Source: an uncultured SAR86 cluster bacterium (GTDB lineage: Bacteria > Pseudomonadota > Gammaproteobacteria > Magnimaribacterales > Magnimaribacteraceae). Taken from it: 64,000 nucleotides of DNA. This document shows, in pieces, positions 41,749 through 60,392 of the stretch. Below the pieces are notes generated by a model. The model was not told where the DNA came from. It searched no databases and saw only the letters and a program-made list of their open reading frames with translations. Location: NCBI GenBank assembly GCA_902618945.1, contig CACNCK010000002.1:107238-171237 (forward strand). The letters are read 5' to 3'. Position 1 is the first letter of the stretch. Each line of letters begins with the position of its first letter. The position numbers and the translations under genes were made by a program.

Positions 41749-43971
41749 ATGATAAGAAAAGCTATTTACTTCGTTTTATTTCTTTTTCTTATATTTGCAT
41801 TTTTTGTATACCTAATTTCAGAAGGTCTTCTTGGAACCTATGAAACGAATAGACCAATTAACACTACTCCTCAATCTCCAGAATTCCTAATTGAAAAGTC
41901 TCAAAATCAATTGGAAGCCAAAGGTGATCTAAATATTAGTAATGGAAAGGTTATCTTGTTTGGTGATTTACATGTTCATACAACCTATTCGTCTGATGCT
42001 TTTCTTTTAAGTCTTCCCATGCTGTCGGGTGAAGGCTCTATGCCTCCATCTGACGCATGCGATTTTGCAAGGTTTTGCTCTAGCTTAGATTTCTATGCGA
42101 ATACAGATCATGCTGAAGATTTAACTCATATAGACTGGCAGGAAACTAAAGATGCAGTTCGGCAATGTAATTCAATTTCTGGCGACAATGAATCCCCAGA
42201 CACCATAGCTTTTTTAGGATGGGAATGGTCACAAAATGAAGGCTTTGGCATACCGCATTATGGCCATCGAAATGTTATTTTGAAGAGTCTTTTTGATGAT
42301 GAGATTCCTGCTAGACCGATAGCATCAACCTCTGGTGGTTTTATGGATATGCCCCAGTCGGTAAGATTGGGACTATCAGGCATGCGGTCCTTAGATACCA
42401 GAATACATGACCTAATGAGATTTATAGAAGATGGTCAAACGATACCATGTCCCAGTGATGTTCCAGTCAGAGACTTACCTCTGAATTGTAAGGAATATGC
42501 AGAAGATCCGGGTATCCTATTTGATAAGCTAAATGATTGGGGACATGAAGTCATCGTCATTCCCCATGGCACATCTTGGGGAACGTATACACCTGATGAA
42601 TCGGATTGGAAAGATCAATTAAATGATGACTTTCATGACCCAAATTTACAAAATCTTGTTGAAATTTATTCTGGTCATGGAAATACAGAAGAGTATAGGT
42701 CATGGAGAAGCGTAATTTTTGATAATGATGGAAATATTTCTTGCCCAGATCCAACAAAGAGTTTTACTCCAGGTTGCTGGCAAGCTGGACAAATAATAAA
42801 AGAGAGATGTGAGGCAGAAGGAGAATCAGCACGAGTATGTAAAAAACGTTCTGAAGAAGCGAAGTTAAATTATGCTCTGGAGAGCTTTGCAGGTCAGTCT
42901 GTCATAGTCGGAGAAGATCCTTCTGAATGGTTGGATTCAAATCAATGCCAAGATTGTTTTCTGCCACCTTTTAGTCATAAACCTAAAGGTTCAATTCAAT
43001 ACTTATTGGCATTACAAAATTTTAATAAAGACGACCGAGTAAGTAAGTTTAGGTTTGGTTTGGTTGCCTCTGGAGATAATCATAATGCTAGACCTGGAAC
43101 TGGATACAAAGAAATAAATCGACGAGAAATGACGGAAGCCGCTGGTCCTGCTGATCCAACTGGTTACCTTTTAGGTTTCAGAGAAGGTGATGGTCCTTAT
43201 GGAGAGTCAGTTAGAAGAAATTGGACTAGACAAACTCTTCCACCTGGACCAATAGAGATGGAGAGAACTTCATCTTTTTTCTATACCGGTGGTTTAGTTG
43301 CTACACACTCACAAGATAAATCTAGAGAATCAATATGGAACTCTCTTAAAACCAAAGAAGTTTATGCTACGAGTGGAACTCGAATTTTATTGTGGTTTGA
43401 TTTATTGAATTCTAGTGAGGGTATTATTCCCATGGGCTCTGAAACAAAAATGAAAACTAATCCAAGATTTATAGTTAGAGCAGCTGGATCATTTAAACAA
43501 AAACCAGGTTGTCCAGAATATGCAATTAGTTCACTTGGTAAAGAAAGGATCACTGATCTGTGTAGAAATGAATGCTACAACCCTTCAGATCAAAGAAAGA
43601 AGATAGATCGAATTGAAGTTGTAAGGATTCTTTCCCAATCAAACGAAAATGAAGAGGTATCAGACCTTATCCAAGATCCATGGAAAGTTCACAAATGTAA
43701 TGATAGTGAGTCATGTGAATTTACATTTGTTGATAATGAATTTGATCAGTCCGAGAGAGATGTTGTTTATTATGTAAAAGCAATTGAAGAAACTTCTAAA
43801 ATTATCAATGCAGGTAATTTAAGATGCGAATACGATGAGTTTGGCAACTGCAAATCTGTGAATATTTGCAGTGGTAGTTCAATGCTTACGCCATACGAAG
43901 ATGATTGTCTCTCCGAAGAACAAGAGAGAGCTTGGTCCTCACCAATATTTGTAGATTATAAAAAATATTGA
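41749..43971 (+). CDS. DUF3604 domain protein
   Basis: 'VILFGDLHVHTTYSSDAFL', 'YANTDHAEDL', 'FLGWEWSQN', 'YATSGTRILLWFDLLNS'. Confidence 0.9.
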   Translation: MIRKAIYFVLFLFLIFAFFVYLISEGLLGTYETNRPINTTPQSPEFLIEKSQNQLEAKGDLNISNGKVILFGDLHVHTTYSSDAFLLSLPMLSGEGSMPPSDACDFARFCSSLDFYANTDHAEDLTHIDWQETKDAVRQCNSISGDNESPDTIAFLGWEWSQNEGFGIPHYGHRNVILKSLFDDEIPARPIASTSGGFMDMPQSVRLGLSGMRSLDTRIHDLMRFIEDGQTIPCPSDVPVRDLPLNCKEYAEDPGILFDKLNDWGHEVIVIPHGTSWGTYTPDESDWKDQLNDDFHDPNLQNLVEIYSGHGNTEEYRSWRSVIFDNDGNISCPDPTKSFTPGCWQAGQIIKERCEAEGESARVCKKRSEEAKLNYALESFAGQSVIVGEDPSEWLDSNQCQDCFLPPFSHKPKGSIQYLLALQNFNKDDRVSKFRFGLVASGDNHNARPGTGYKEINRREMTEAAGPADPTGYLLGFREGDGPYGESVRRNWTRQTLPPGPIEMERTSSFFYTGGLVATHSQDKSRESIWNSLKTKEVYATSGTRILLWFDLLNSSEGIIPMGSETKMKTNPRFIVRAAGSFKQKPGCPEYAISSLGKERITDLCRNECYNPSDQRKKIDRIEVVRILSQSNENEEVSDLIQDPWKVHKCNDSESCEFTFVDNEFDQSERDVVYYVKAIEETSKIINAGNLRCEYDEFGNCKSVNICSGSSMLTPYEDDCLSEEQERAWSSPIFVDYKKY

Positions 43972-46880: not shown

Positions 46881-46892
46881 GACTCTTTACAA

Positions 46893-46947
46893 TGTCACAC
46901 AAATGTCATATAAAAGACACATATGTGACAATTATGTGACATACAAG
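46893..46947 (+). promoter_or_regulatory. Five tandem 11-bp repeats, Pho-box-like PhoB-binding array
   Basis: TGTCACACAAA/TGTCATATAAA/AGACACATATG/TGACAATTATG/TGACATACAAG at 46893, 46904, 46915, 46926 and 46937. Confidence 0.65.
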
Positions 46948-46955
46948 GAGTAAAC

Positions 46956-47411
46956 ATGAAATTAATAAACAAAATAATTAGTTTAAGTCTAATAATGATT
47001 TCTTCTTATACATATTCGGAGTCCAATCACGGATCTCTTTTCTCATTTGCAGAAAATATGCTAGAAATCGAAGGAACTGCTCCTAATATAATATTTTCAA
47101 GCAATGATGAGATAGGTGATTTATGCTCTGATCAATTGATTGCTTGCTTTAGGTCTGATAAACCTTCAAACATATATATTCAAGCAGGACTTCAACTAGA
47201 CTTACTTAATACCACTTTAGTTGGTCTTATGTCCGATTATTTACAATTTAATGCAAATAAAAACATAGATAATTTAAAAAGTTGCAATGCTCAAGTTGAC
47301 TATCTTTTAAGCACATTTAAGGTAAATAAAGCCAAGATATATAAAGCTACTGCTTGCGGAAGGAAAACTATTTCACAAAAACAGATGGAAAATCTTTTAG
47401 CATCAAAATAA
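46956..47411 (+). CDS. exported protein of unknown function, candidate Pho-regulon member
   Basis: 151 aa, signal peptide 'MKLINKIISLSLIMISSYTYS', AAGGAG RBS, 4 Cys in the mature part. Confidence 0.7.
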   Translation: MKLINKIISLSLIMISSYTYSESNHGSLFSFAENMLEIEGTAPNIIFSSNDEIGDLCSDQLIACFRSDKPSNIYIQAGLQLDLLNTTLVGLMSDYLQFNANKNIDNLKSCNAQVDYLLSTFKVNKAKIYKATACGRKTISQKQMENLLASK

Positions 47412-47424
47412 ATTTCTTGGGGAG

Positions 47425-47455
47425 AAAAAAGAGGGACTTGATCCCTCTTTTTTTT
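47425..47455 (+). terminator. Rho-independent terminator
   Basis: AAAAAAGAGGGA-cttga-TCCCTCTTTTTTTT. Confidence 0.9.
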
Positions 47456-47555: not shown

Positions 47556-48359
47556 ATGAATGAAGTAATAAAACTAATTCAACCTAAACATTATAAGACT
47601 ATTTGGCTTAGCGACATACACCTAGGCACCAAAGGATGTCAGGCAGAGAAGTTGCTAGACTTTTTATACGAGAATAGTTGTGACACATTATACTTAGTTG
47701 GAGATATTATAGATGGTTGGAGATTAAGCCAGAGTCTTTATTGGCCTCAGACCCACTCAAACGTAATTAGAAGATTTCTTTCTTTCTCTAAACAAGGAAC
47801 CGAGATTATCTTCATAACTGGTAATCATGATGAATTCTTAAGATCATTTTCACCAATTAATCTAGGAAATATCAAAATCATTGACGAGGCAATTCACACC
47901 ACTTGTGATGATAGAGAATTGTTAGTTATACACGGCGATGAATACGATGTAGTCACTAAATATAGTAGATGGATGGCAGTATTGGGATCAGTGGGATATG
48001 AATTTTTAATGGCCTTTAACAGAGGATGGAATATTTTACGCAGATTTTTTGGTTATAAAAATTATTGGTCACTTTCAGCTTATGTCAAGCACAAGGTAAA
48101 GTCAGCTGTTAATTTTATTAGCGACTTTGAAGAAACATTAGCCAGTGCATGCAAAAAACAAGGTTATGATGGAGTGATTGCCGGTCATATACACCATGCA
48201 GAAATTAGAGAAATTGATGGTATCCAATATATGAATTGTGGAGATTGGGTAGAATCATGCACTGCTCTTGTAGAGAAGGAAGATGGTGAAATTTGCATTA
48301 TTGATTACGGCAATAAAGTAAATGAAAATGATAAAGAAAATCAAATCGAAGTAGCATGA
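47556..48359 (+). CDS. plcP: Calcineurin-like metallophosphoesterase, UDP-2,3-diacylglucosamine-hydrolase-like; candidate PlcP phospholipase C
   Basis: 'WLSDIHLGTKG', 'LVGDIIDGWRL', 'ITGNHDEFLR', 'IHGDEYD', 'IAGHIHHAEIREIDGIQYMNCGDWVESCTAL'; adjacent to lipid-type glycosyltransferase. Confidence 0.78.
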   Translation: MNEVIKLIQPKHYKTIWLSDIHLGTKGCQAEKLLDFLYENSCDTLYLVGDIIDGWRLSQSLYWPQTHSNVIRRFLSFSKQGTEIIFITGNHDEFLRSFSPINLGNIKIIDEAIHTTCDDRELLVIHGDEYDVVTKYSRWMAVLGSVGYEFLMAFNRGWNILRRFFGYKNYWSLSAYVKHKVKSAVNFISDFEETLASACKKQGYDGVIAGHIHHAEIREIDGIQYMNCGDWVESCTALVEKEDGEICIIDYGNKVNENDKENQIEVA

Positions 48360-49366
48360 GAGTAGTTATCGTGTCAGACGCATGGTATCCACAAGTCAAT
48401 GGCGTCGTTACTACTCTTTCTCAGCTTAAACAGAATTTAGAAAAAAAAGGATACATTGTTGATCTTATAGAGCCTTCTTTATTTAAGACAACATCAACAA
48501 CTATTTATCCCGAAATTTCTCTTTCAATGAACCCTTGGAAAATAAAAGAATATCTAGATACAGAATTTGATTATTTACACATAGCAACAGAAGGACCTTT
48601 GGGTTTCTTTGCTCGAAGATTTGCCAACAAACATGACTTAAATTACACAACAGCTATTCATACTAAATTTCCAGAATATTTAAATAAAATGATTTTCTTG
48701 CCGGCTGCTCTTACTTACAAATATCTCAGATGGTTTCATAAGAACTCCACCGCAGTATTGGTTAATACTAATTCTCAGATTAAAGAACTTAAAAGCAAGA
48801 AATTTAAAAATCTCAAACTATGGAGTAGGGCAATTGACAAATTGATTTTTTACCCAAGAGAAAAAAAATGCGCAGATAACTATTTGCTTTATGTTGGAAG
48901 AGTATCTAGAGAAAAGAATTTAGAAGCATTTCTCAATCTTCCAACTCACGAAATCAAAGTTGTTGTTGGCTCGGGTCCTATGCTTGATGAATATAAAACA
49001 AAATATAAGGACATAAAATTTGTAGGTCCTAAATTTGGTAACGACTTGGCTCAATTTTATTCAGATGCTTCTGTATTTGTCTTTCCTTCAATGACAGACA
49101 CCTATGGAATAGTTATGATAGAGGCTATGGCTTGTGGCACACCTGTGGCAGCCTTTCCCGTGACTGGTCCTATCGATGTTATAGAGCCCAACCTTAATGG
49201 TTCTGTCAATGAAGACCTGGAAAGAGCAGTTTCTCAAGCAAAAGTAATTTCTTCTCAATCATGTATAGATTCAGTTAAAAATCTATCTTGGGACAGTGTT
49301 ACGCAAACTTTCTTGGATACTCTTGTTCACTGCAAATCTAATCAAGAAAAAATAGTTCAAGCATGA
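48356..49366 (+). CDS. GT4-family glycosyltransferase (SqdX/MgtA/Agt-like), candidate diacylglycerol glycosyltransferase
   Basis: 'SDAWYPQVNGVVTTL', 'LLYVGRVSREKNLEAFL', 'FPSMTDTYGIVMIEAMACGTPVAAFPVTGPIDVI'. Confidence 0.82.
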   Translation: MRVVIVSDAWYPQVNGVVTTLSQLKQNLEKKGYIVDLIEPSLFKTTSTTIYPEISLSMNPWKIKEYLDTEFDYLHIATEGPLGFFARRFANKHDLNYTTAIHTKFPEYLNKMIFLPAALTYKYLRWFHKNSTAVLVNTNSQIKELKSKKFKNLKLWSRAIDKLIFYPREKKCADNYLLYVGRVSREKNLEAFLNLPTHEIKVVVGSGPMLDEYKTKYKDIKFVGPKFGNDLAQFYSDASVFVFPSMTDTYGIVMIEAMACGTPVAAFPVTGPIDVIEPNLNGSVNEDLERAVSQAKVISSQSCIDSVKNLSWDSVTQTFLDTLVHCKSNQEKIVQA

Positions 49367-50706
49367 AATTAACTGTAGTTGGATCAGGTTATGTTGGGTT
49401 AGTTACTGCTGCATGTTTTAGTTTTGCTGGTCATGACGTTCTTTGTGTAGAAAAAGATAAAAAGAAAATTAGTTCCATCAAAAAAGGCAATCTACCCTTT
49501 TATGAACCAAATCTTGAAAACCTAGTTAAAGAAGGGATAAAAAATGGCAGATTAATTTTTTCTACTGATCTCTCCCTTATCAATGAATTTTCTGAAAGTG
49601 TTTTTATTTGTGTGGGTACTCCCAGTAATCCTGATGGATCAGCAAATATCAACTATGTTAAGAAATCTTTGAAGCAAATATTACTAATAGATAATTCAAA
49701 ATTAGAAGATATAGTTATAAAGAGCACAGTACCTCCCGGCACTGCAGATAGACTTTCTAGTGAAATATGTGAAAAAAGAAATATAGACTTGGTCAGTTGT
49801 CCTGAGTTTTTACGGGAAGGGTCCGCTGTTCAGGATTTTTTGAAGCCTCAACGAATTATACTAGGACTACATAATCAACGTAAAAGGGATAAATTCCGCA
49901 GTATTTTTTCCCCATTTAATAGGAAACAGGACAGAATACTTTTTATGGATCCTGTATCTGCTGAACTAACCAAGTATGCATCAAATGCTATGCTAGCAAC
50001 CAAAATCAGTTTTATTAACGAACTGTCTAGATATTCAGACCTTAAGGGAGCTAATATTGAAAAGGTCAGAATGGGAATGGGTTTAGACAGCAGAATAGGA
50101 TTAGAATATTTATATCCTGGTTGTGGATTTGGAGGTTCTTGTTTTCCTAAAGATATTGATGCTCTGATATCTTCCGCAAAAGAAGCTAACCTTAATCTTG
50201 ACCTTATTAAGGCAGTAAAGAAAATAAATCAATCTCAGCCAGACTATCTTATTGATAAACTTTCAGACCATTATGACAATCAATTAAATGGTAAGACAAT
50301 TTCTCTATGGGGGCTTTCTTTCAAGCCAAACACAGATGATATGAGAAGTGCACCCGCACTAAAGGTTATTTCCAAACTATTAGATTTAGGTTGCTTCTTG
50401 CAGATATATGATCCCAAAGCGATGGAAAACTTTAAGAATTCTCCACTTCATACCCCTAATACATTGTTATGTAATTCTGCATCAGAAACTCTTGAAGGAT
50501 CAGATGGACTTGTAATATGTACAGAATGGAGAGAGTTCTTTCAAATTGATTTAAATGTCTTTCAAAGAATGAAATCAAAAGTAGTCATTGATGGCAGAAA
50601 TATCTATCCTCTTGAAACAATGAAAGAAAATGACATAATCTACTATTCTATCGGCAGACCGTTTACAAATATTAAGCAAGGGAACATTGAATTAAAAGCT
50701 AGTTAA
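49363..50706 (+). CDS. ugd: UDP-glucose 6-dehydrogenase
   Basis: 'VVGSGYVGLVTAACFSFAGHDVLCVE', 'CPEFLREGSAVQDFLKPQRIILG', 'YPGCGFGGSCFPKD'. Confidence 0.93.
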   Translation: MKLTVVGSGYVGLVTAACFSFAGHDVLCVEKDKKKISSIKKGNLPFYEPNLENLVKEGIKNGRLIFSTDLSLINEFSESVFICVGTPSNPDGSANINYVKKSLKQILLIDNSKLEDIVIKSTVPPGTADRLSSEICEKRNIDLVSCPEFLREGSAVQDFLKPQRIILGLHNQRKRDKFRSIFSPFNRKQDRILFMDPVSAELTKYASNAMLATKISFINELSRYSDLKGANIEKVRMGMGLDSRIGLEYLYPGCGFGGSCFPKDIDALISSAKEANLNLDLIKAVKKINQSQPDYLIDKLSDHYDNQLNGKTISLWGLSFKPNTDDMRSAPALKVISKLLDLGCFLQIYDPKAMENFKNSPLHTPNTLLCNSASETLEGSDGLVICTEWREFFQIDLNVFQRMKSKVVIDGRNIYPLETMKENDIIYYSIGRPFTNIKQGNIELKAS

Positions 50707-51181: not shown

Positions 51182-51868
51182 ATGTCAAAAAATATTTTAG
51201 TTGTAGAAGACGAACCTGATTTAAGAACAACTCTTGAATTTAATTTAAGGTCAGAAGGATATAAAGTTAAGTCTGCTGCGGATGGTGAAGCCGCAATCAA
51301 AGAAATTGTAAAAAAAGTACCTGATCTTGTGCTTCTTGATTTAATGCTACCTGACATGTCGGGACTTGAAATTTGCAAAAAAATAAGAAATGAATCCTTT
51401 AGTGATCAAGTGTCTATCATCATGTTAACTGCAAAGGGAGAAGAAGTAGATAGGGTTGTGGGATTTGAACTAGGTGCTGATGACTACGTAGTTAAACCTT
51501 TCAGTGTTAGAGAGCTTATGTTGCGAATTTCATCAATCTTAAAAAGAGGATCAGAAACAAAAACTAATAAAGAACAAATTTCAATAGGTGATGTTGAAAT
51601 TAATTTAGCTTCACATAGGGTTTTTATAAGTGGTCTCGAAATTGAACTTACTGCAAAAGAGTTTGAATTACTTAAATACCTGGCGGAACGCAATGGAAGA
51701 ATTCAAACCAGAGAAGTATTATTGGAACAAGTGTGGGATTATAACAATTCAGTCACAACCAGAACTGTGGATACTCATATCAAAAGACTTAGATCTAAAA
51801 TCGGTGATGTGGGATCAAAAATAGAAACCGTCAGAGGTGTAGGTTACCGCTTTAATTACGTCGTATAA
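51182..51868 (+). CDS. phoB: phosphate regulon response regulator PhoB
   Basis: REC 'ILVVEDEPDLRTTLEFNLRSEGY...DLVLLDLMLPDMSG...GADDYVVKPFS' plus OmpR-type wHTH 'RTVDTHIKRLRSKIG...RGVGYRF'. Confidence 0.9.
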   Translation: MSKNILVVEDEPDLRTTLEFNLRSEGYKVKSAADGEAAIKEIVKKVPDLVLLDLMLPDMSGLEICKKIRNESFSDQVSIIMLTAKGEEVDRVVGFELGADDYVVKPFSVRELMLRISSILKRGSETKTNKEQISIGDVEINLASHRVFISGLEIELTAKEFELLKYLAERNGRIQTREVLLEQVWDYNNSVTTRTVDTHIKRLRSKIGDVGSKIETVRGVGYRFNYVV

Positions 51869-51875
51869 TCTATGA

Positions 51876-53609
51876 ATGGATATTAGATGGAGGATCTTCT
51901 GGTCTACTTTTTTGCTTACATCGATGACTGTTCTCAGTCTAGGATATTTACTCTTAGAAAGAACAGGTGATTATTTATTAGAACAATTAGACTCGGAGCT
52001 AACTTCTGAAGCAAAAGGTGCGATTTTTATACTCTCTAATCCAGATTATAAAATTTCCAGTTACCAAACACTTTCACGACAACTCTCAGATTCATATGGT
52101 TTTAGAGTTTCTCTCATCAAATCAAATGGTGAAGTGGTAGGCGACTCAGATGTCGAAGAGGAAGACCTTAGGAAACTGGACAATCATTACAATAGACCTG
52201 AAATTCAGGCAGCTATTATTAATAATATTGGTAAAGCGACTCGTTACAGTAATACCTTAAAAACAGATATGAGGTATCTTGCTTTAGCATCAAATAAAGC
52301 AGGAGACATAAACTTTGTTAGATTCGCCGTTCCACTATCTGAAATAGAAGCTACATTACTGGTTCTAGAAAATTCCGTATATGGCTTTTTGCTCGTATCC
52401 CTATTAATTGCTGTGCTTTTAAGTTATTTATTGTCTAGATTTCTAACGCTTGAGTATATTGAATTGATATCAAGTGCTAGAAAATTAGCAAAAACAAGTG
52501 GCATGAAGGGGTCGAAAAGAGCTGCAGTAGAGCAAATAAGTTCTAATTTAATTGAAATCCAGGGAGCACTTAAGAACGAGTTTACTGCTATTGCCAATGA
52601 AAGAAATCAGTTTGGAAATGCACTTGAAGAAATGGGACAGGGTGTAATTTCGATTAATAAAAATGGAATAATAGAATTAACCAACCCAGCTGCCAGTAAA
52701 CTGTTAGGTCTAGATAAGCTATCTATAGGAGATTCTTTTATGGAAAAGGTCTCAATATCTGGGTTACAAGACCTAATAAAGGAAACTACTTCTTCAGAAC
52801 CCGGATTAGATGAGATAGAAATACACCATCCCTTTTATAGAGCTTTTATTGCAAGTGCCAGTTTCAATCCAGATACGGAAGAGTCTTTACTCGTATTTTC
52901 AGATATTACTAGAATAAAAAAACTTGAATCTGCCAGAAGTGACTTTATAGGTAATGTCTCTCATGAACTTAGAACACCCATTTCGGTACTTTTAGCTTCA
53001 TCAGAGACTATTCTTAATACCGACATAAAAAAAGAAAAAGATCTAAAACAGTTTATTAAAGCTATACACCGAAATTCCGAAAGACTTAAAAATTTAGTAG
53101 ATGATCTTCTGCACTTATCGCGTATAGAGGGTGGCAGTCTTAATATGACTATCGAGAAGATAAATCTTGATCACATAGTTGAATCAACTATATTAAATTT
53201 AGAACAAGAAGCACTAAAGAAAAGTATAAACATTGAATCTCTGGTTGATAAAAGGATTGAAGTACTATCGGACTTCATTTCCTTGGATATTATAATCTCT
53301 AACTATTTAAATAATGCACTTGCTTATTCTCCAAATAATTCAAAAATCATAATTACTGCAGAAGAGGTAGATAAAAAGATAAAGTTATCAGTTAAGGATG
53401 AGGGAGAGGGAATACCTGAAAATTATAAAGATAGAGTTTTTGAAAGATTTTTTAGAGTTGATAAAGGGAGGTCTCTGAACCAGGGTGGTACTGGGCTTGG
53501 GTTATCCATAGTCAAAAATTTAGCTTCAACTCTTTCTTGTACAGTTGGGGTAGAAAATCTTGAGCCAAAAGGAGCAAGTTTTTGGATAGAGTTAAATAAA
53601 TCAACTTAA
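51876..53609 (+). CDS. phoR: phosphate regulon sensor histidine kinase PhoR (with extracytoplasmic sensor segment)
   Basis: H-box 'DFIGNVSHELRTPISVL', N/G boxes 'NNALAYSP', 'DEGEGIP', 'GTGLGLSIVKNLA'; two TM flanking about 130 aa, PAS-like domain. Confidence 0.9.
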   Translation: MDIRWRIFWSTFLLTSMTVLSLGYLLLERTGDYLLEQLDSELTSEAKGAIFILSNPDYKISSYQTLSRQLSDSYGFRVSLIKSNGEVVGDSDVEEEDLRKLDNHYNRPEIQAAIINNIGKATRYSNTLKTDMRYLALASNKAGDINFVRFAVPLSEIEATLLVLENSVYGFLLVSLLIAVLLSYLLSRFLTLEYIELISSARKLAKTSGMKGSKRAAVEQISSNLIEIQGALKNEFTAIANERNQFGNALEEMGQGVISINKNGIIELTNPAASKLLGLDKLSIGDSFMEKVSISGLQDLIKETTSSEPGLDEIEIHHPFYRAFIASASFNPDTEESLLVFSDITRIKKLESARSDFIGNVSHELRTPISVLLASSETILNTDIKKEKDLKQFIKAIHRNSERLKNLVDDLLHLSRIEGGSLNMTIEKINLDHIVESTILNLEQEALKKSINIESLVDKRIEVLSDFISLDIIISNYLNNALAYSPNNSKIIITAEEVDKKIKLSVKDEGEGIPENYKDRVFERFFRVDKGRSLNQGGTGLGLSIVKNLASTLSCTVGVENLEPKGASFWIELNKST

Positions 53610-54491
53610 ATTTTCGTTAAGATATTCAAAGGCCAAGGCATCACAAATTCCCCAATCTATAGCGAAAAGCTTATTTATATTTGAGTGCTCTAAAATATAA
53701 GAAAAAATATCTGAAGCGGGTACAATTACATCTGCTCTATCTTCCGCAAGACTATATTTATTTATTCGATCAACAATTGGCATTTTAGATAAATTTTTTC
53801 TGATTTCTTCAAATTCCTTAAGTTCTAAAGGACTATATTTTTGTATTTCAAGAATCTTAAAAATTCTCCTTATATTGCCACCGATACCCACTAAAGCGTC
53901 TGCATTATTTTCTTTAACTACATTCAAAAAGGCTTTTAACTTTTCCCATTCTTTTATGCTGTCTTTACCCTTCATAATTCTCACAGCACCAAGATCAAAT
54001 GATTCATAAAACTCTTCGGAGCTATTGCGCATATAAATTTCTGTACTGCCTCCTCCAACATCAACATAGATAGGGTGATTCAGGTTTTCAATTTTTCTTG
54101 TATTGGCACCTTTAAGGTAATAGGCCTCTTGTTTACCGCTTAATATATTAACAGGTGTCTGACAGGCTTCTTCAATCTTGCTACATACTTCATTTCCATT
54201 TACCGCATTCCTAGTAGCCGATGTTGCGCATATTCCAGCCCACTCTATTTTCCTTTTTCGAACTTTATTAGTAAGATTTTTAAGTTCTTGAATAAGTCTT
54301 TTTTCTGATTCTTCTGAGATCCTATTTGTTTCAAATACATCTTGTCCAAGCCTAAGATCAATTCTTTTAAAGGTATCTAACTCTAATGGGAAGAGATTCT
54401 TCGAGGTCCTAATCCTAAATTGCTTGAACTTAATTGCATTTGATCCAATATCAACGGCAGCAATTCGTTGGAAAATTTTCTTTGATTTCAA
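53601..54491 (-). CDS. ppx: Ppx/GppA family exopolyphosphatase
   Basis: 'AAVDIGSNAIKFKQFRI', 'YVDVGGGSTEIYM', 'IGGNIRRIF'. Confidence 0.88.
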   Translation of the reverse strand: MKSKKIFQRIAAVDIGSNAIKFKQFRIRTSKNLFPLELDTFKRIDLRLGQDVFETNRISEESEKRLIQELKNLTNKVRKRKIEWAGICATSATRNAVNGNEVCSKIEEACQTPVNILSGKQEAYYLKGANTRKIENLNHPIYVDVGGGSTEIYMRNSSEEFYESFDLGAVRIMKGKDSIKEWEKLKAFLNVVKENNADALVGIGGNIRRIFKILEIQKYSPLELKEFEEIRKNLSKMPIVDRINKYSLAEDRADVIVPASDIFSYILEHSNINKLFAIDWGICDALAFEYLNENLS

Positions 54492-55327
54492 CTGGATTGA
54501 TTTTGTATAAGTTTTTGTAACATTTTAAACTGCTGATATGTGAGCCCGGAAAACTCAACACCTTTATATTCTAGTTTGTGGTTATTTATGCCTGCATCCC
54601 ATGTTTTGGGTTTGCTAAGTTTTTTTCCTTCATAGTCAATCTCATTTAAGAGATACCTTAAGGCTGTTAAGCGAGCGACCATTTTATTATTTGCATTAAT
54701 CACTATCCAAGGACTTTGCTCATAAGATGTGTTTGAGAACATTTGTTCTTTAAAAAAAGAAAAAATCTCCCATTTATCTGCCATTCTTAAATCATTAGTA
54801 CTTAGTTTCCAGAGTTTCAAAGGGTCAGTTTGTCTTTCGTTGAACCGTTTGCTTTGTTGTCTTTTTTCAATGGACAAATAGAACTTGATCAAAATAAGGT
54901 TGTCTTCAATATATGATTTTTCCCATCTTATGACTTTGTTCATAAAATGAGTGTATTGCCTTTTAGAGCAATAACCCATAGTTATCTCGACCGTGGCTCT
55001 TGTGTACCAAGATCTATCAAAAAAAACTATTTCGCCTTTTTTAGGCATATGTTTTTCATAACGTTTAAACCATTTTTTTGATTCATTTTCAGTTGGTATT
55101 CCTAAATGCACATACCTAAAATGATCAGGAATAAGATGTTTGGCTAATAGATTGATTGTGTCAGTTTTCCCAGCTGCGTCCCTTCCTTCAAAAACAACGG
55201 CTATTTTTTTCCCTTCTTTAATTGCCCAATTTTGAAGCTTAAGAAACTCAATTTGTAGACTTCTTTTTTCTTTTCTATAAAGGTCGGGATTGAGTCTGTT
55301 GTATTCGGAAACGTCGTAGTTGATCAT
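54488..55327 (-). CDS. ppk2: polyphosphate kinase 2 (PPK2 family)
   Basis: 'VFEGRDAAGKTDTINLLAKHLIPDHFRYVHLGIPT', 'GEIVFFDRSWYTRATVE'. Confidence 0.93.
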   Translation of the reverse strand: MINYDVSEYNRLNPDLYRKEKRSLQIEFLKLQNWAIKEGKKIAVVFEGRDAAGKTDTINLLAKHLIPDHFRYVHLGIPTENESKKWFKRYEKHMPKKGEIVFFDRSWYTRATVEITMGYCSKRQYTHFMNKVIRWEKSYIEDNLILIKFYLSIEKRQQSKRFNERQTDPLKLWKLSTNDLRMADKWEIFSFFKEQMFSNTSYEQSPWIVINANNKMVARLTALRYLLNEIDYEGKKLSKPKTWDAGINNHKLEYKGVEFSGLTYQQFKMLQKLIQNQSS

Positions 55328-55438: not shown

Positions 55439-56668
55439 ATGATCATTGAATTCGCTCTTCCAATTTTAATTCTTACAGCGCTAGCCGGCTTGATAATGGC
55501 CTGGGGAATTGGTGCAAATGATGTTGCCAACGCCATGGGAACATCGGTAGGATCCGGCGCTATTACCCTTTCGACCGCTATCTTAATAGCCTGTATATTT
55601 GAATTCTCGGGAGCCTTTTTAGCTGGTGGAGAAGTAACCTCTACGGTTAGAAAAGGTATTCTAGATCCCTTATTATTTGAAGATAATCCTGACCTGTTTG
55701 TATTTGGAATGATATCAGCACTGCTAGCTGCCGGAACATGGCTTGTGGTTGCTACCTATTTTGGATGGCCTGTTTCAACTACCCACACCATAGTAGGAGG
55801 TATAGTTGGTTTTGGAATATTGGGATTATCATTTTCAGCAATAGATTGGGGCACGATGTCAGATATAGCTTTAAGCTGGCTTCTATCTCCCCTTATATCA
55901 GGGACTATATCTTTCTTAATATATCTATCTATAGACAAATTAATTTTAAGAAATAACAACCCAATTCAAATGGCACAAAGATATGGCCCAATATATCTTT
56001 TCTTCGTTGCCTTTATTGTCAGTATGGTGACTTTTACCAAAGGACTTAAGCATATTGGTCTAGGTTTAGATTACACAGATAGCATAATCTATTCATTTAT
56101 CTTTGGTTTATTTATAACTTTCTTAGGTTTTGTATTTTTATCAAGACTAAGAAATAGTTCTATAGATCAAATTTTCGGAATACTAATGGTATTCACAGCT
56201 TGCGTGATGGCGTTCGCCCACGGTTCTAATGATACAGCTAATGCGGTTGGGCCCGTAGCCGCAGTATTCTCAACTGTTATGAATGAAGGTGTATCAAAAG
56301 AAGCGGCAGTATCAGTTTGGCTTCTGCTTGGAGGCGGAATAGGGATAGTTCTTGGTCTGGCAATGTGGGGTTATAGAGTTATTCAAACTATAGGAAAAGA
56401 AATTACTAAACTAACCCCTACTAGTGGTTTTGCTGCAGAACTGGCAGCTGCTACTACGGTTGTTATCGCATCTGGTAATGCCATGCCCATTTCAACGACG
56501 CATACTTTAGTCGGAGCGGTGTTTGGTGTCGGCTTAGCGATGTCTGTTAAAGACCTAGATTTCAAAGTAGTTGGCAAGATAGTAGCCTCTTGGTTGACTA
56601 CCGTTCCAGCAGGAGCAATTCTCTCAATGATTTTTTTAACACTATTTAGATACTTATTCCAGATCTAA
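55439..56668 (+). CDS. pitA: inorganic phosphate transporter (PiT family)
   Basis: 'WGIGANDVANAMGTSVGSGAITL' and 'FAHGSNDTANAVGPVAAV' duplicated PiT signatures; 'PISTTHTLVGAVFGVG'. Confidence 0.94.
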   Translation: MIIEFALPILILTALAGLIMAWGIGANDVANAMGTSVGSGAITLSTAILIACIFEFSGAFLAGGEVTSTVRKGILDPLLFEDNPDLFVFGMISALLAAGTWLVVATYFGWPVSTTHTIVGGIVGFGILGLSFSAIDWGTMSDIALSWLLSPLISGTISFLIYLSIDKLILRNNNPIQMAQRYGPIYLFFVAFIVSMVTFTKGLKHIGLGLDYTDSIIYSFIFGLFITFLGFVFLSRLRNSSIDQIFGILMVFTACVMAFAHGSNDTANAVGPVAAVFSTVMNEGVSKEAAVSVWLLLGGGIGIVLGLAMWGYRVIQTIGKEITKLTPTSGFAAELAAATTVVIASGNAMPISTTHTLVGAVFGVGLAMSVKDLDFKVVGKIVASWLTTVPAGAILSMIFLTLFRYLFQI

Positions 56669-56681
56669 TCGTAACCAAATT

Positions 56682-56729
56682 ATCACAAAGTGACAGCATA
56701 ATTGTCACCAAGATTATAGAGAATATACT
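56682..56729 (+). promoter_or_regulatory. Promoter and Pho-box-like sites upstream of TonB receptor/phytase
   Basis: ATCACAAAGTGACAGCATAATTGTCACC followed by TTGTCA-N16-TATACT. Confidence 0.5.
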
Positions 56730-56749
56730 GCTTATATTTGGAGAAATTT

Positions 56750-59284
56750 ATGTTACGTCTGAGTTTTTTGTCGATTTTTTCTTTATCTCTTTCCCTTTTT
56801 GTCCCCAATTTCGCATTTGCAGACGAAGATTCGTCGCAAGCCGATGAAGAAGTTGTAGTTGTAGGCTCTCTTGCTAGCTTAAGAAGTGCCCTCAACAAAA
56901 AAAGGGATTCTGACAAAAATGTTGGTGTAATTGATTCTGATGCCTTAGGAAATTTTGCCGACATTAACGTAGCTGAATCCTTGAGGAGAATTTCAGGTAT
57001 TTCAGTTGAAAATGATCAAGGTGAAGGAAGGTACGTAACTGTGAGAGGTATGAACACTGATTTGAACGCAATGACTATCAATGGAGTCAGTACAGCTTCT
57101 CCTGAAGATAGAAGAGGTGTGATACTAGACGGTGTTCCTACAGATCTTCTAGATTCAATGACGGTTTATAAGACACTCACTCCAAACTTAGATGCAGATA
57201 CAATCGGAGGAGCTATAGATTTAGAAACGATTTCAGCATTTTCTTACGGATCAAATTTTGTAAAATTTAAAGCTGAAACTTCTAGAAATGACCTTACAAA
57301 AGATAGCAGTAATCCTAAATTGTCAGGTACATATACTACAGTTATTCCACAAGAGAATGGTGATCTTGGAATAGCATTTGTAATCAGCTCCCAAGAAAGA
57401 CGCATCAAGGCAGAAAATAATGAAGCTGGCGGTTGGGGATCTACTTATGTAGATGATGACTATGAAATGCGTTACTACGATCTCACAAGAGAAAGAGATG
57501 GAATAGTTCTTAATCTAGATTATGTATCAAATTCAGGAAGTAAAACTTATTTACATCTTTTCCATAACGAATATGAAGATGTTGAATATAGGGCAAAGTG
57601 GGAAGTTAGAGACGTAATGGAAGAATACACACCAACAATATCTGGAACTGTAGCGACATATGGAGCTTCTAGAATGGATACTGAAGGGAAAAATAGAACT
57701 GAAATTCGATCTATCGATAATTTAGCTATTGGCCATGAGACCCAACTTGCAAATGGAGGCTTTTTAGAAGTTCAAGCATTTAGATCTGAAGCAGAACAAG
57801 ATGATACAGATAGATATAATTTAATATTTAGAAGTAAAGAAAAAGATGGTGTTACTACACTAGATACTGCTAATCCTCAGAAGCCGGTTTTAGGACTTCC
57901 CTCCGAATTCTATGATGCCTCTACATTTCCAGGAAAGGCAGCAGAACAAGAATATGCCCTTACTGAAGATGAAGAACAGGGCTTCAAAATTGATTACACC
58001 TATATGATCGGTGAAACAGTTGTGCAGACTGGACTAAAGTATAGACAAAGAGAAAAGATAAATAATTATCAATTCTGTGAGTACGATATGCCAAAAGGTA
58101 CTACATTGGCAGATTATGATTATCAGACAATAGGAAAGTATTTGGCAAACACACACGGACCTGCTCCAACTTTTGAACAAGTTAAATCAATAGTAACAAA
58201 TAATACTTCCGGAACAGTTACATTCTCAGACGGTACTACCTGTCCTGGACCAGGAACTTACTTTAGAGGTATGGGTGGTGATGAAGAAGAAGAATCTATT
58301 CCAGCAGACTGGACAACAGAAGAAGACATCCTAGCCTTATATTTTATGGGTACAACTTTGTATGAAAACTCCACTTGGGTTTATGGCATAAGATTTGAAG
58401 ATACTGAAACTACCTACAAAGGTAAAAACTGGAATGATACTTATCTTGGAGATAATGAATTTGAAAATAACTACTCCTTTGCAGCACCCTCTTTAAACAT
58501 TAAATATGACATCTCAGATGATATGGTTCTTAGATTTGGTGCATTTAGATCACTTGTAAGACCTGGATTTAAAGAATCAAGAGCTGGTGCGATTATCAAT
58601 GTTGAGGATAATGAAATAGAAGGTGGAAATCCTAATTTAGATCCTACCAAAGCCACCAATGTCGATATTTCGTTTGAATACTATATTGATGAGAATACTT
58701 TCTTAGGAATGGGTGCTTTCTATAAAAATATAGAGGATGCGATTGTAGAGGTTGAATCTCGTAGTTTTGCAATGCGAGGATCAATATGGGATAAAGCGGA
58801 AACTTATATCAATGCCGATGATAGCAGCATCAATGGCTTAGAGTTTTCCTATCAAACAGCTTTTGATAATGGCTTCATTTTAGTTGCAAATTATACATAT
58901 GCAGACGGTGAAACTGACTTACCTGCTGATGCTGCTGCAGGACAAAGGACTATTCCATACTTTAAACAAGTAGAAAATACATGGAATCTTTCTCTAGGCT
59001 ACGACGATGGTCCATGGGATATTAGATTGGCCGCAACATACAGAGACAATTACCTTGATGAAGTAGGATCTAAGCCTCTTAATGATCGTTATACAGATGA
59101 TCATATGCAAGTTGATTTAACTGCAAAATATAAAGTTAATGATTCTTTAAGAATAACGTTTGAAGCTATTAATTTAAATGATGAACCTGAGTATTATTAC
59201 TTTGGTAATCCTTCAAGACTCTCGCAATATGACGAGTATGGAGCTACTTATGGAGTTGGATTTAGGTATATCTTGAATCAATAG
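56750..59284 (+). CDS. TonB-dependent receptor, candidate phytate/organic-P receptor
   Basis: Signal peptide, plug 'NVAESLRRISGISVENDQGEGRYVTVRGMNTDLNAMTINGV', barrel end 'ATYGVGFRYILNQ'; ATG at 56750 after GGAGA preferred over the track's TTG. Confidence 0.92.
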   Translation: MLRLSFLSIFSLSLSLFVPNFAFADEDSSQADEEVVVVGSLASLRSALNKKRDSDKNVGVIDSDALGNFADINVAESLRRISGISVENDQGEGRYVTVRGMNTDLNAMTINGVSTASPEDRRGVILDGVPTDLLDSMTVYKTLTPNLDADTIGGAIDLETISAFSYGSNFVKFKAETSRNDLTKDSSNPKLSGTYTTVIPQENGDLGIAFVISSQERRIKAENNEAGGWGSTYVDDDYEMRYYDLTRERDGIVLNLDYVSNSGSKTYLHLFHNEYEDVEYRAKWEVRDVMEEYTPTISGTVATYGASRMDTEGKNRTEIRSIDNLAIGHETQLANGGFLEVQAFRSEAEQDDTDRYNLIFRSKEKDGVTTLDTANPQKPVLGLPSEFYDASTFPGKAAEQEYALTEDEEQGFKIDYTYMIGETVVQTGLKYRQREKINNYQFCEYDMPKGTTLADYDYQTIGKYLANTHGPAPTFEQVKSIVTNNTSGTVTFSDGTTCPGPGTYFRGMGGDEEEESIPADWTTEEDILALYFMGTTLYENSTWVYGIRFEDTETTYKGKNWNDTYLGDNEFENNYSFAAPSLNIKYDISDDMVLRFGAFRSLVRPGFKESRAGAIINVEDNEIEGGNPNLDPTKATNVDISFEYYIDENTFLGMGAFYKNIEDAIVEVESRSFAMRGSIWDKAETYINADDSSINGLEFSYQTAFDNGFILVANYTYADGETDLPADAAAGQRTIPYFKQVENTWNLSLGYDDGPWDIRLAATYRDNYLDEVGSKPLNDRYTDDHMQVDLTAKYKVNDSLRITFEAINLNDEPEYYYFGNPSRLSQYDEYGATYGVGFRYILNQ

Positions 59285-59354: not shown

Positions 59355-60392
59355 ATGAAAAATATAATTTTTTTCCTTTTCTTCGTATCATTTACTATGA
59401 GTGCTGCCATAGAAGATCATAAAATTTATCCTATTTATGAAACTGAAGCAGTAAAAACATCGGGTGATGCTGCCGATGACCCGGCATTTTGGTTTAACAA
59501 AACAAATCCTGAAAAAAGTATTGTTTTTGGAACAGATAAGAAATCAGGTATTTACACTTACGACTTGTCCGGTAAAACATTAAATTATTTTCCCATGGGA
59601 AGGATAAATAATATTGATTTAAGATCTGATTATATAATTCAAGACAGAACAGTCTCGTTATTGGCCGGTACAAATCGAGATCTTAATAGAGTTGATTTTC
59701 TGTTGATTGGATCAAATGGCAGTGTTGTTGAGTATTATGATAACTCTTATCAGACTGAACTAACCTCTGTTTATGGTCTCTGTATGTTTAAAGATACAGA
59801 TAACTCTAAAACTTTCATATTTGTTACTGATGAGAAAAGTCTTGCAATATACCAGTATGAGATTCAATCCTATGCTCCTATGTCTGCAAAATTAGTCAGA
59901 ACAATACCTACTCAATCTGTATCTGAGGGTTGTGTAGTAGATGATGATTTAAAAATACTTTATTTTTCCCAAGAAGACGAAAAATCTGGAATCTTCAAGA
60001 CAACAGCAATGCCAGAAGGTGGAAATATTGAAACAGTAGATTTAATTAAACCATCTGGGAATATAACCGGCGATTCCGAAGGGTTAGCTTTAGTTAAATT
60101 ACCTGATCAAACATTATTAATTTCATCATCTCAAGATTCTAATGAGTATCTAATTTATACAACCGGCATCGAAAATCGGTACCTTGGTAAATTTACTATT
60201 GCAATTTCAACTATAGATGGAACAAGCGAAACAGATGGTATAGAGGCCTTTTACGGGCCATTAAGTCCTCAATTTCCTTTAGGAATTTTTATTGCTCAAG
60301 ATGATGTAAACCTTGATCAATACGGTGAACCAATAAATCAAAATTTCAAATTTTCTTCTCTGAAAGATGCAATAGATCCTTTTATTAAATAG
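59355..60392 (+). CDS. 3-phytase, beta-propeller phytase family
   Basis: 'GDAADDPAFWFN', 'SEGCVVDDDLKILYFSQED', 'GDSEGLALVKLPDQTLLISSSQDSNEYLIY', 'ETDGIEAFYGPLSPQFPLGIFIAQDDVN'. Confidence 0.93.
   Translation: MKNIIFFLFFVSFTMSAAIEDHKIYPIYETEAVKTSGDAADDPAFWFNKTNPEKSIVFGTDKKSGIYTYDLSGKTLNYFPMGRINNIDLRSDYIIQDRTVSLLAGTNRDLNRVDFLLIGSNGSVVEYYDNSYQTELTSVYGLCMFKDTDNSKTFIFVTDEKSLAIYQYEIQSYAPMSAKLVRTIPTQSVSEGCVVDDDLKILYFSQEDEKSGIFKTTAMPEGGNIETVDLIKPSGNITGDSEGLALVKLPDQTLLISSSQDSNEYLIYTTGIENRYLGKFTIAISTIDGTSETDGIEAFYGPLSPQFPLGIFIAQDDVNLDQYGEPINQNFKFSSLKDAIDPFIK

Follow-up and report, generated by a model that had tools for sequence, protein, structure and literature searches.

A small SAR86-specific protein family of the secreted type encoded behind a candidate PhoB operator

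As judged from its sequence, the 151-aa protein described here belongs to a previously unrecognised family specific to SAR86, and its gene lies behind a regular array of PhoB-type half-sites in a 64,000-nucleotide stretch of DNA from an uncultured SAR86 cluster bacterium (hereafter the window). The reading that we favour, with a probability of roughly one half, is that of an exported pseudo-zincin under direct control by PhoB~P, most likely as a repressor, simple induction being less likely. The protein would then be small, exported and probably disulfide-bonded, with a zincin fold devoid of zinc and catalytic residues, and would most likely bind a partner in the periplasm rather than catalyse a reaction. 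PhoB~P would control the single-gene unit directly, at what is the strongest PhoB operator in the genome, and the level of the protein would accordingly follow phosphate status. When phosphate is scarce, PhoB~P would most likely limit or shut off the gene, whether by itself or following a first phase of activation of the kind seen at E. coli phoB, because the sites cover the -10, start and ribosome-binding site (RBS) of a sigma-70-like promoter. The unit consists of the following features:

46886-46914, + strand: putative sigma-70 promoter TTTACA-17-TATAAA (9/12, a consensus match only), its -10 inside the array
46893-46941, + strand: array TGTCACACAAATGTCATATAAAAGACACATATGTGACAATTATGTGACA of five PhoB-type half-sites (TGTCA, TGTCA, AGACA, TGACA, TGACA), exactly 11 bp apart
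46893-46910, + strand: PhoB-type full site 1, TGTCACACAAATGTCATA, E. coli PhoB matrix score 19.56
46924-46941, - strand: PhoB-type full site 2, score 19.61, the best of the window
46945-46950, + strand: RBS AAGGAG, immediately 3' of the array
46956-47411, + strand: gene of the 151-aa secreted-type, SAR86-only family protein, with an ATG start and four conserved cysteines
46956-47018, + strand: predicted signal peptide at the N-terminus, spanning roughly residues 1-21 (from hydropathy and low model confidence)
47423-47455, + strand: intrinsic terminator hairpin GAAAAAAGAGGGA-CTTGA-TCCCTCTTTTTTTT

The array and its phosphorus-gene setting

The original prediction had placed a Pho-like array upstream of the gene, and the five evenly spaced half-sites bear this out. 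We regard the array as a genuine and well supported PhoB-box candidate, to which PhoB would be expected to bind. A matrix built from 59 ChIP-mapped E. coli sites (PMC10294691) was scanned over a complete sister genome of 1.59 Mb (G005), where among 1,601 upstream regions it ranked the family gene first (19.6), a TonB receptor adjoining pitA second (16.1) and phoB third (13.5). Only these three promoters reach about 13.5 and, since they lie inside one 10-kb cluster, their ranking is not due to chance. The same genome holds a single array of four to five units of such regularity, again at the family gene. In the window, the two best matrix sites are the two halves of the array; at phoB and the TonB receptor the promoter scores fall below those of the sister genome, and plcP has no site. 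In 28 of 30 homologous loci a matrix site scoring 13.5 or more lies near the start, the exceptions being both copies in genome G056, one of them partial. The pattern TGTNACA-N4-TGTNACA was found in 51 of 101 relatives, versus about 6 for the reversed pattern. Away from the family, arrays stand before an aqp-arsC-pstS run (family f3, genus g12), just behind phoR (f2) and before TonB receptors (f4), while the few matches inside unrelated genes look like chance. The operator looks more constant than the gene downstream of it. The E. coli consensus string had also been tried as a scanner and proved too blunt, with the array tied best and no excess over shuffles; the ChIP matrix was substituted for it.

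The gene forms a separate promoter-gene-terminator unit inside a dense phosphorus cluster, and in this sense the earlier description of it as standing alone and independently regulated is upheld, as is that of a strong terminator: the segment 47412-47462 folds at -22.3 kcal/mol (z = -4.7), and none of 200 shuffles was as stable. In the window's genus, the gene has a SixA-like phosphatase gene on one side and plcP-agt-UGDH-cytidylyltransferase-phoB-phoR on the other; phoR is followed by ppx, ppk2 and pitA, then by the genes of a TonB receptor and a phytase. The cluster includes:

47556-48359, + strand: PlcP-like metallophosphoesterase (Metallophos match; context as in PMC4796936)
48356-49366, + strand: Agt-like glycosyltransferase
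49363-50706, + strand: nucleotide-sugar (UDP-glucose) dehydrogenase, UGDH, missing in some relatives
51182-51868, + strand: PhoB response regulator, with DNA-reading residues common to E. coli PhoB
51876-53609, + strand: PhoR sensor kinase
53601-55327, - strand: Ppx/GppA phosphatase and PPK2 polyphosphate kinase
55439-56668, + strand: PitA-type phosphate transporter (PHO4)
56738-59284, + strand: TonB-dependent receptor; its window site (56670-56687) scores 11.7, and in the sister genome its promoter is of the canonical PhoB kind
59355-60392, + strand: beta-propeller phytase (PF02333)

The pair plcP-agt is a known P-sparing lipid-remodelling module, and PlcP has been reported in SAR86 (PMC4796936). 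Elsewhere in the order the setting varies, though phosphorus genes are often part of it: the family gene lies beside ppk2-ppx-phoR-phoB in f3 genera g9 and g17, beside a PhoD-like phosphatase or pitA/TonB in f2, and after tatC in f4, and it has no P gene nearby in f3 genus g13. Two further observations concern the cluster itself. The phytase, directly downstream of the TonB receptor, may form with it a module for uptake of phytate or inositol phosphates, and a 740-aa DUF3604 protein with a signal anchor (window positions 41749-43971) is syntenic beside the cluster in all near relatives.

Other small genes were also seen under such arrays. A 28-aa ORF that is conserved and seems to have escaped annotation (M[IV]KxxWxKFHxxMKxGRLxKVxKISGI-like; L150:1562-1648 and L190:3067-3153, with counterparts at the same position in L155, L156, L158 and L159) lies between phoR and gspC in f2 genera, with a PhoB-type array, an RBS and, in L190, a terminator; a similar ORF of about 29 aa occupies the family-gene position of the sister genomes in G098 (L152). 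In eight f4 loci (L174, L175, L176, L177, L179, L180, L181 and L184), secreted-type ORFs of about 100 aa with two cysteines, unrelated to the family, lie beside tatC under a PhoB-type array and apparently replace the family gene; one of them was scanned and had no Pfam match.

Position of the sites and sign of control

PhoB acts as a dual regulator, with an effect that depends on where it binds (PMC10294691); E. coli phoB itself is repressed through a PhoB site located at its -10 (PMC6194859). Consensus -35/-10 pairs with a spacing of 16-18 bp occur in members of all four SAR86 families, and the repeats run to the RBS. PhoB bound here would cover the -10, the transcription start and the RBS, a position from which repression or a limit on transcription is the more natural outcome. 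By contrast, the TonB receptor promoter of G005 shows the classical arrangement, with CATAAT 27 bp from the beginning of the box, identical to that of E. coli phoB. To the extent that these promoters, which are consensus matches, can be taken as a guide, repression, dual control or a brief pulse seems at least as likely as induction. The proposal that the gene belongs to the Pho regulon therefore stands as regards a PhoB target, given the best site among 1,601 upstream regions and the P-gene neighbours, whereas the induction under P starvation that it implied is unsupported as stated, the position of the sites suiting repressive or dual control no less, and so is the strong expression first suggested.

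It may nonetheless be that the gene is a classical Pho member, activated by PhoB~P at site 1 under phosphate starvation, with a product that aids P acquisition or envelope remodelling. We consider this a serious contender, albeit with odds below even. The matrix ranking and the other PhoB-site evidence apply to it as well, the neighbours are P-acquisition and lipid-remodelling genes, and f1 and G038 have a CATATG or TATATG at 27 bp from the beginning of site 1, the same spacing as in E. coli phoB. Yet such a -10 would be a poor one, matching at 3-4 of 6 positions (3/6 for the CATATG at +27 in the window), and a second site of equal strength lies over the start and the RBS. Moreover, f4 members and most of those in f3 g9/g17 have only opposite-strand sites, at or downstream of the promoter; in f4 there are just two repeats, both downstream of a TTGACA-17-TATATT or TAGTAT promoter that agrees with the consensus at 10-11 of 12 positions.

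A different regulator might read TGTNACA-N4-TGTNACA, leaving PhoB irrelevant, but we think this improbable. In its favour, arrays persist in six small f4 genomes (G037, G064, G073, G076, G091 and G094) in which no PhoB, GspD or OmpR-family DNA-binding domain was found. The ortholog of the neighbouring acyl-CoA synthetase was likewise not found in these six, which have only 33%-identical matches, and the phoBR-gsp block has been either truly lost or left out of the assemblies; the most complete of the six, at 97%, makes loss plausible. If PhoB has truly been lost in f4, the array must either be read by something else or be a relic. The 18-mer is also palindromic, as for dimeric repressors, a TetR gene adjoins the family member in G038, and one f2 genome has an array flanked by a TetR gene and a TonB receptor gene. 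Against this, the E. coli PhoB matrix independently puts the family promoter and two genes of the phoBR cluster on top, arrays stand before pstS and beside phoR, and genomes without PhoB are mostly incomplete. SAR86 PhoB also keeps its DNA-reading residues: the window's PhoB is identical to that of E. coli at W184, R193, H198, R201, R203, T217 and R219, which we take to be DNA contacts of the latter. TetR was considered as the reader of the array and rejected, as the sister genome has only a weak homolog, at about 738 kb and some 33 kb from the array.

That the array works at the RNA level, as a leader hairpin governing translation, rather than as a DNA operator, is highly improbable: the window array can form a hairpin (z = -3.6) and some f2 members fold well too, but other members in f2, f3 and f4 (L047, L051, L040, L057 and L058) have no unusual fold (z from -0.7 to +1.5) though they keep the repeats, and the trend is already one of conserved half-sites with compensatory pairing absent. 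A hairpin was accordingly rejected as the conserved element, since it is the repeated motif and not the fold that is kept across families, and an RNA-family search around the gene gave sub-threshold matches only.

A SAR86-specific family with a possible zincin-like fold

The product had been described as a 151-aa protein of the signal-peptide type with four later cysteines and no recognised family, and the ORF, its dN/dS and its homologs agree with this. Its N-terminus is hydrophobic (Kyte-Doolittle peak of 2.2 at residues 7-17) and of low AlphaFold confidence (residues 1-20), and C57, C64, C110 and C134 all lie past this stretch. The dN/dS of 0.18-0.37 among five close relatives indicates that the ORF is truly coding and under purifying selection. 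Sequence search found homologs in 30 of 101 relatives (E<=1e-3), and the family profile matched in 53 of 203 genomes of the SAR86 order and in none of the 365 other Gammaproteobacteria genomes sampled; even at E<=10 there was no credible homolog outside the order, nor any catalytic homolog with HExxH in the class. Named records with relatives of the protein, from a search that used a subset of the family, are nearly all SAR86. Between SAR86 families identity falls to about 20-30%, despite which the four cysteines and one G, one D and one Q are kept. The cysteines are present in nearly every intact member; L056, the sole member without the fourth, resembles a partial second copy. Searches of Pfam, NCBIfam, PHROGs and PDB sequences, with single members and with the family, gave no match above noise. 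Two candidate identities were rejected: Pfam scans returned no match to a PsiF model or repeat, and viral contigs held no relatives of the protein that would suggest a phage origin.

While profile searches thus returned no family, structure comparison gave a weak but consistent likeness to minigluzincins. Two AlphaFold runs, each led by a different family member, both reached a pLDDT of 85 with pTM of 0.76-0.78, and Foldseek against the PDB listed selecase, jannalysin and IrrE/PprI among the top matches of both models. These matches are weak (E 0.06-0.2, TM about 0.4-0.5), as are those in the viral library, where the top named ones are IrrE- or peptidase-like (E 0.0075), and because of this we argue the zincin likeness from the consistency of the matches. 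In the models, the long helix after the sheet, where minigluzincin enzymes carry HExxH, reads G90-L-M-S-D94-Y-L-Q97, and across the family its motif is G-(L/M/I)-x-x-D, with N for D in one member. The HExxH zinc-binding motif was found in none of 36 members. G90 and D94 may stand in place of lost zinc ligands. With G-L-x-x-D in place of HExxH, the protein is probably a pseudo-enzyme, that is, a minigluzincin-like zincin fold lacking the active site. We give scant credence to the idea that the protein is catalytically active, as a secreted metallopeptidase whose site is unusual: metallopeptidases are the closest structural neighbours, but the absence of HExxH and the family's helix motif speak against it.

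Significance and comparison with known systems

In SAR86, an abundant surface-ocean lineage, PstS was sought and not found in the window's genome, in the f1 relatives tested and, overall, in most of the relatives searched (no PF12849 match above cut-off in 14 SAR86 genomes), which means that the phosphorus response of the lineage cannot be the textbook one. Separately from these 14 genomes, the f3 genus g12 does have a PhoB-type array before an aquaporin-ArsC(LMWPc)-PstS run (L191:714-3021). The gene with the best PhoB operator encodes an unnamed protein and offers a concrete marker for this response; should our reading be confirmed, the phosphorus status of SAR86 would be readable from this gene's transcript in metatranscriptomes, and a new envelope function would come with the protein. 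More speculatively, and we hold this to be unlikely in full, the gene of a dedicated exported pseudo-protease might be the main target of PhoB in a Pho regulon of very small size, switched off rather than on by PhoB~P, in an operator slot that other small genes can refill, such as those for the two-cysteine secreted proteins of about 100 aa in f4 and the 28-aa peptide in some f2 genera.

PsiF-type proteins are small, exported, PhoB-linked proteins of phosphate starvation. The SAR86 protein is likewise small, of the secreted type and a candidate for a PhoB link, but differs in matching no Pfam PsiF model. With the minigluzincins (selecase and jannalysin of M. jannaschii) and the IrrE/SprT-like zincins, the SAR86 models share size, the order of strands and helices and the long helix after the sheet; unlike them, the protein has no HExxH and no sequence match in PDB or Pfam, is predicted to be of the secreted type and carries four cysteines. 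Compared with the plcP-agt lipid-remodelling clusters already described (PMC4796936), the family gene of the window's genus immediately precedes plcP-agt, but as a separate transcription unit, and in other SAR86 families it has other neighbours. As for the E. coli PhoB regulon, the SAR86 array resembles its operators in the 11-bp half-sites, the TGTCA core and the top matrix scores, whereas the SAR86 operator spans the region from the -10 to the RBS and recognisable targets are very few, at 3 of 1,601 upstream regions scoring about 13.5 or more.
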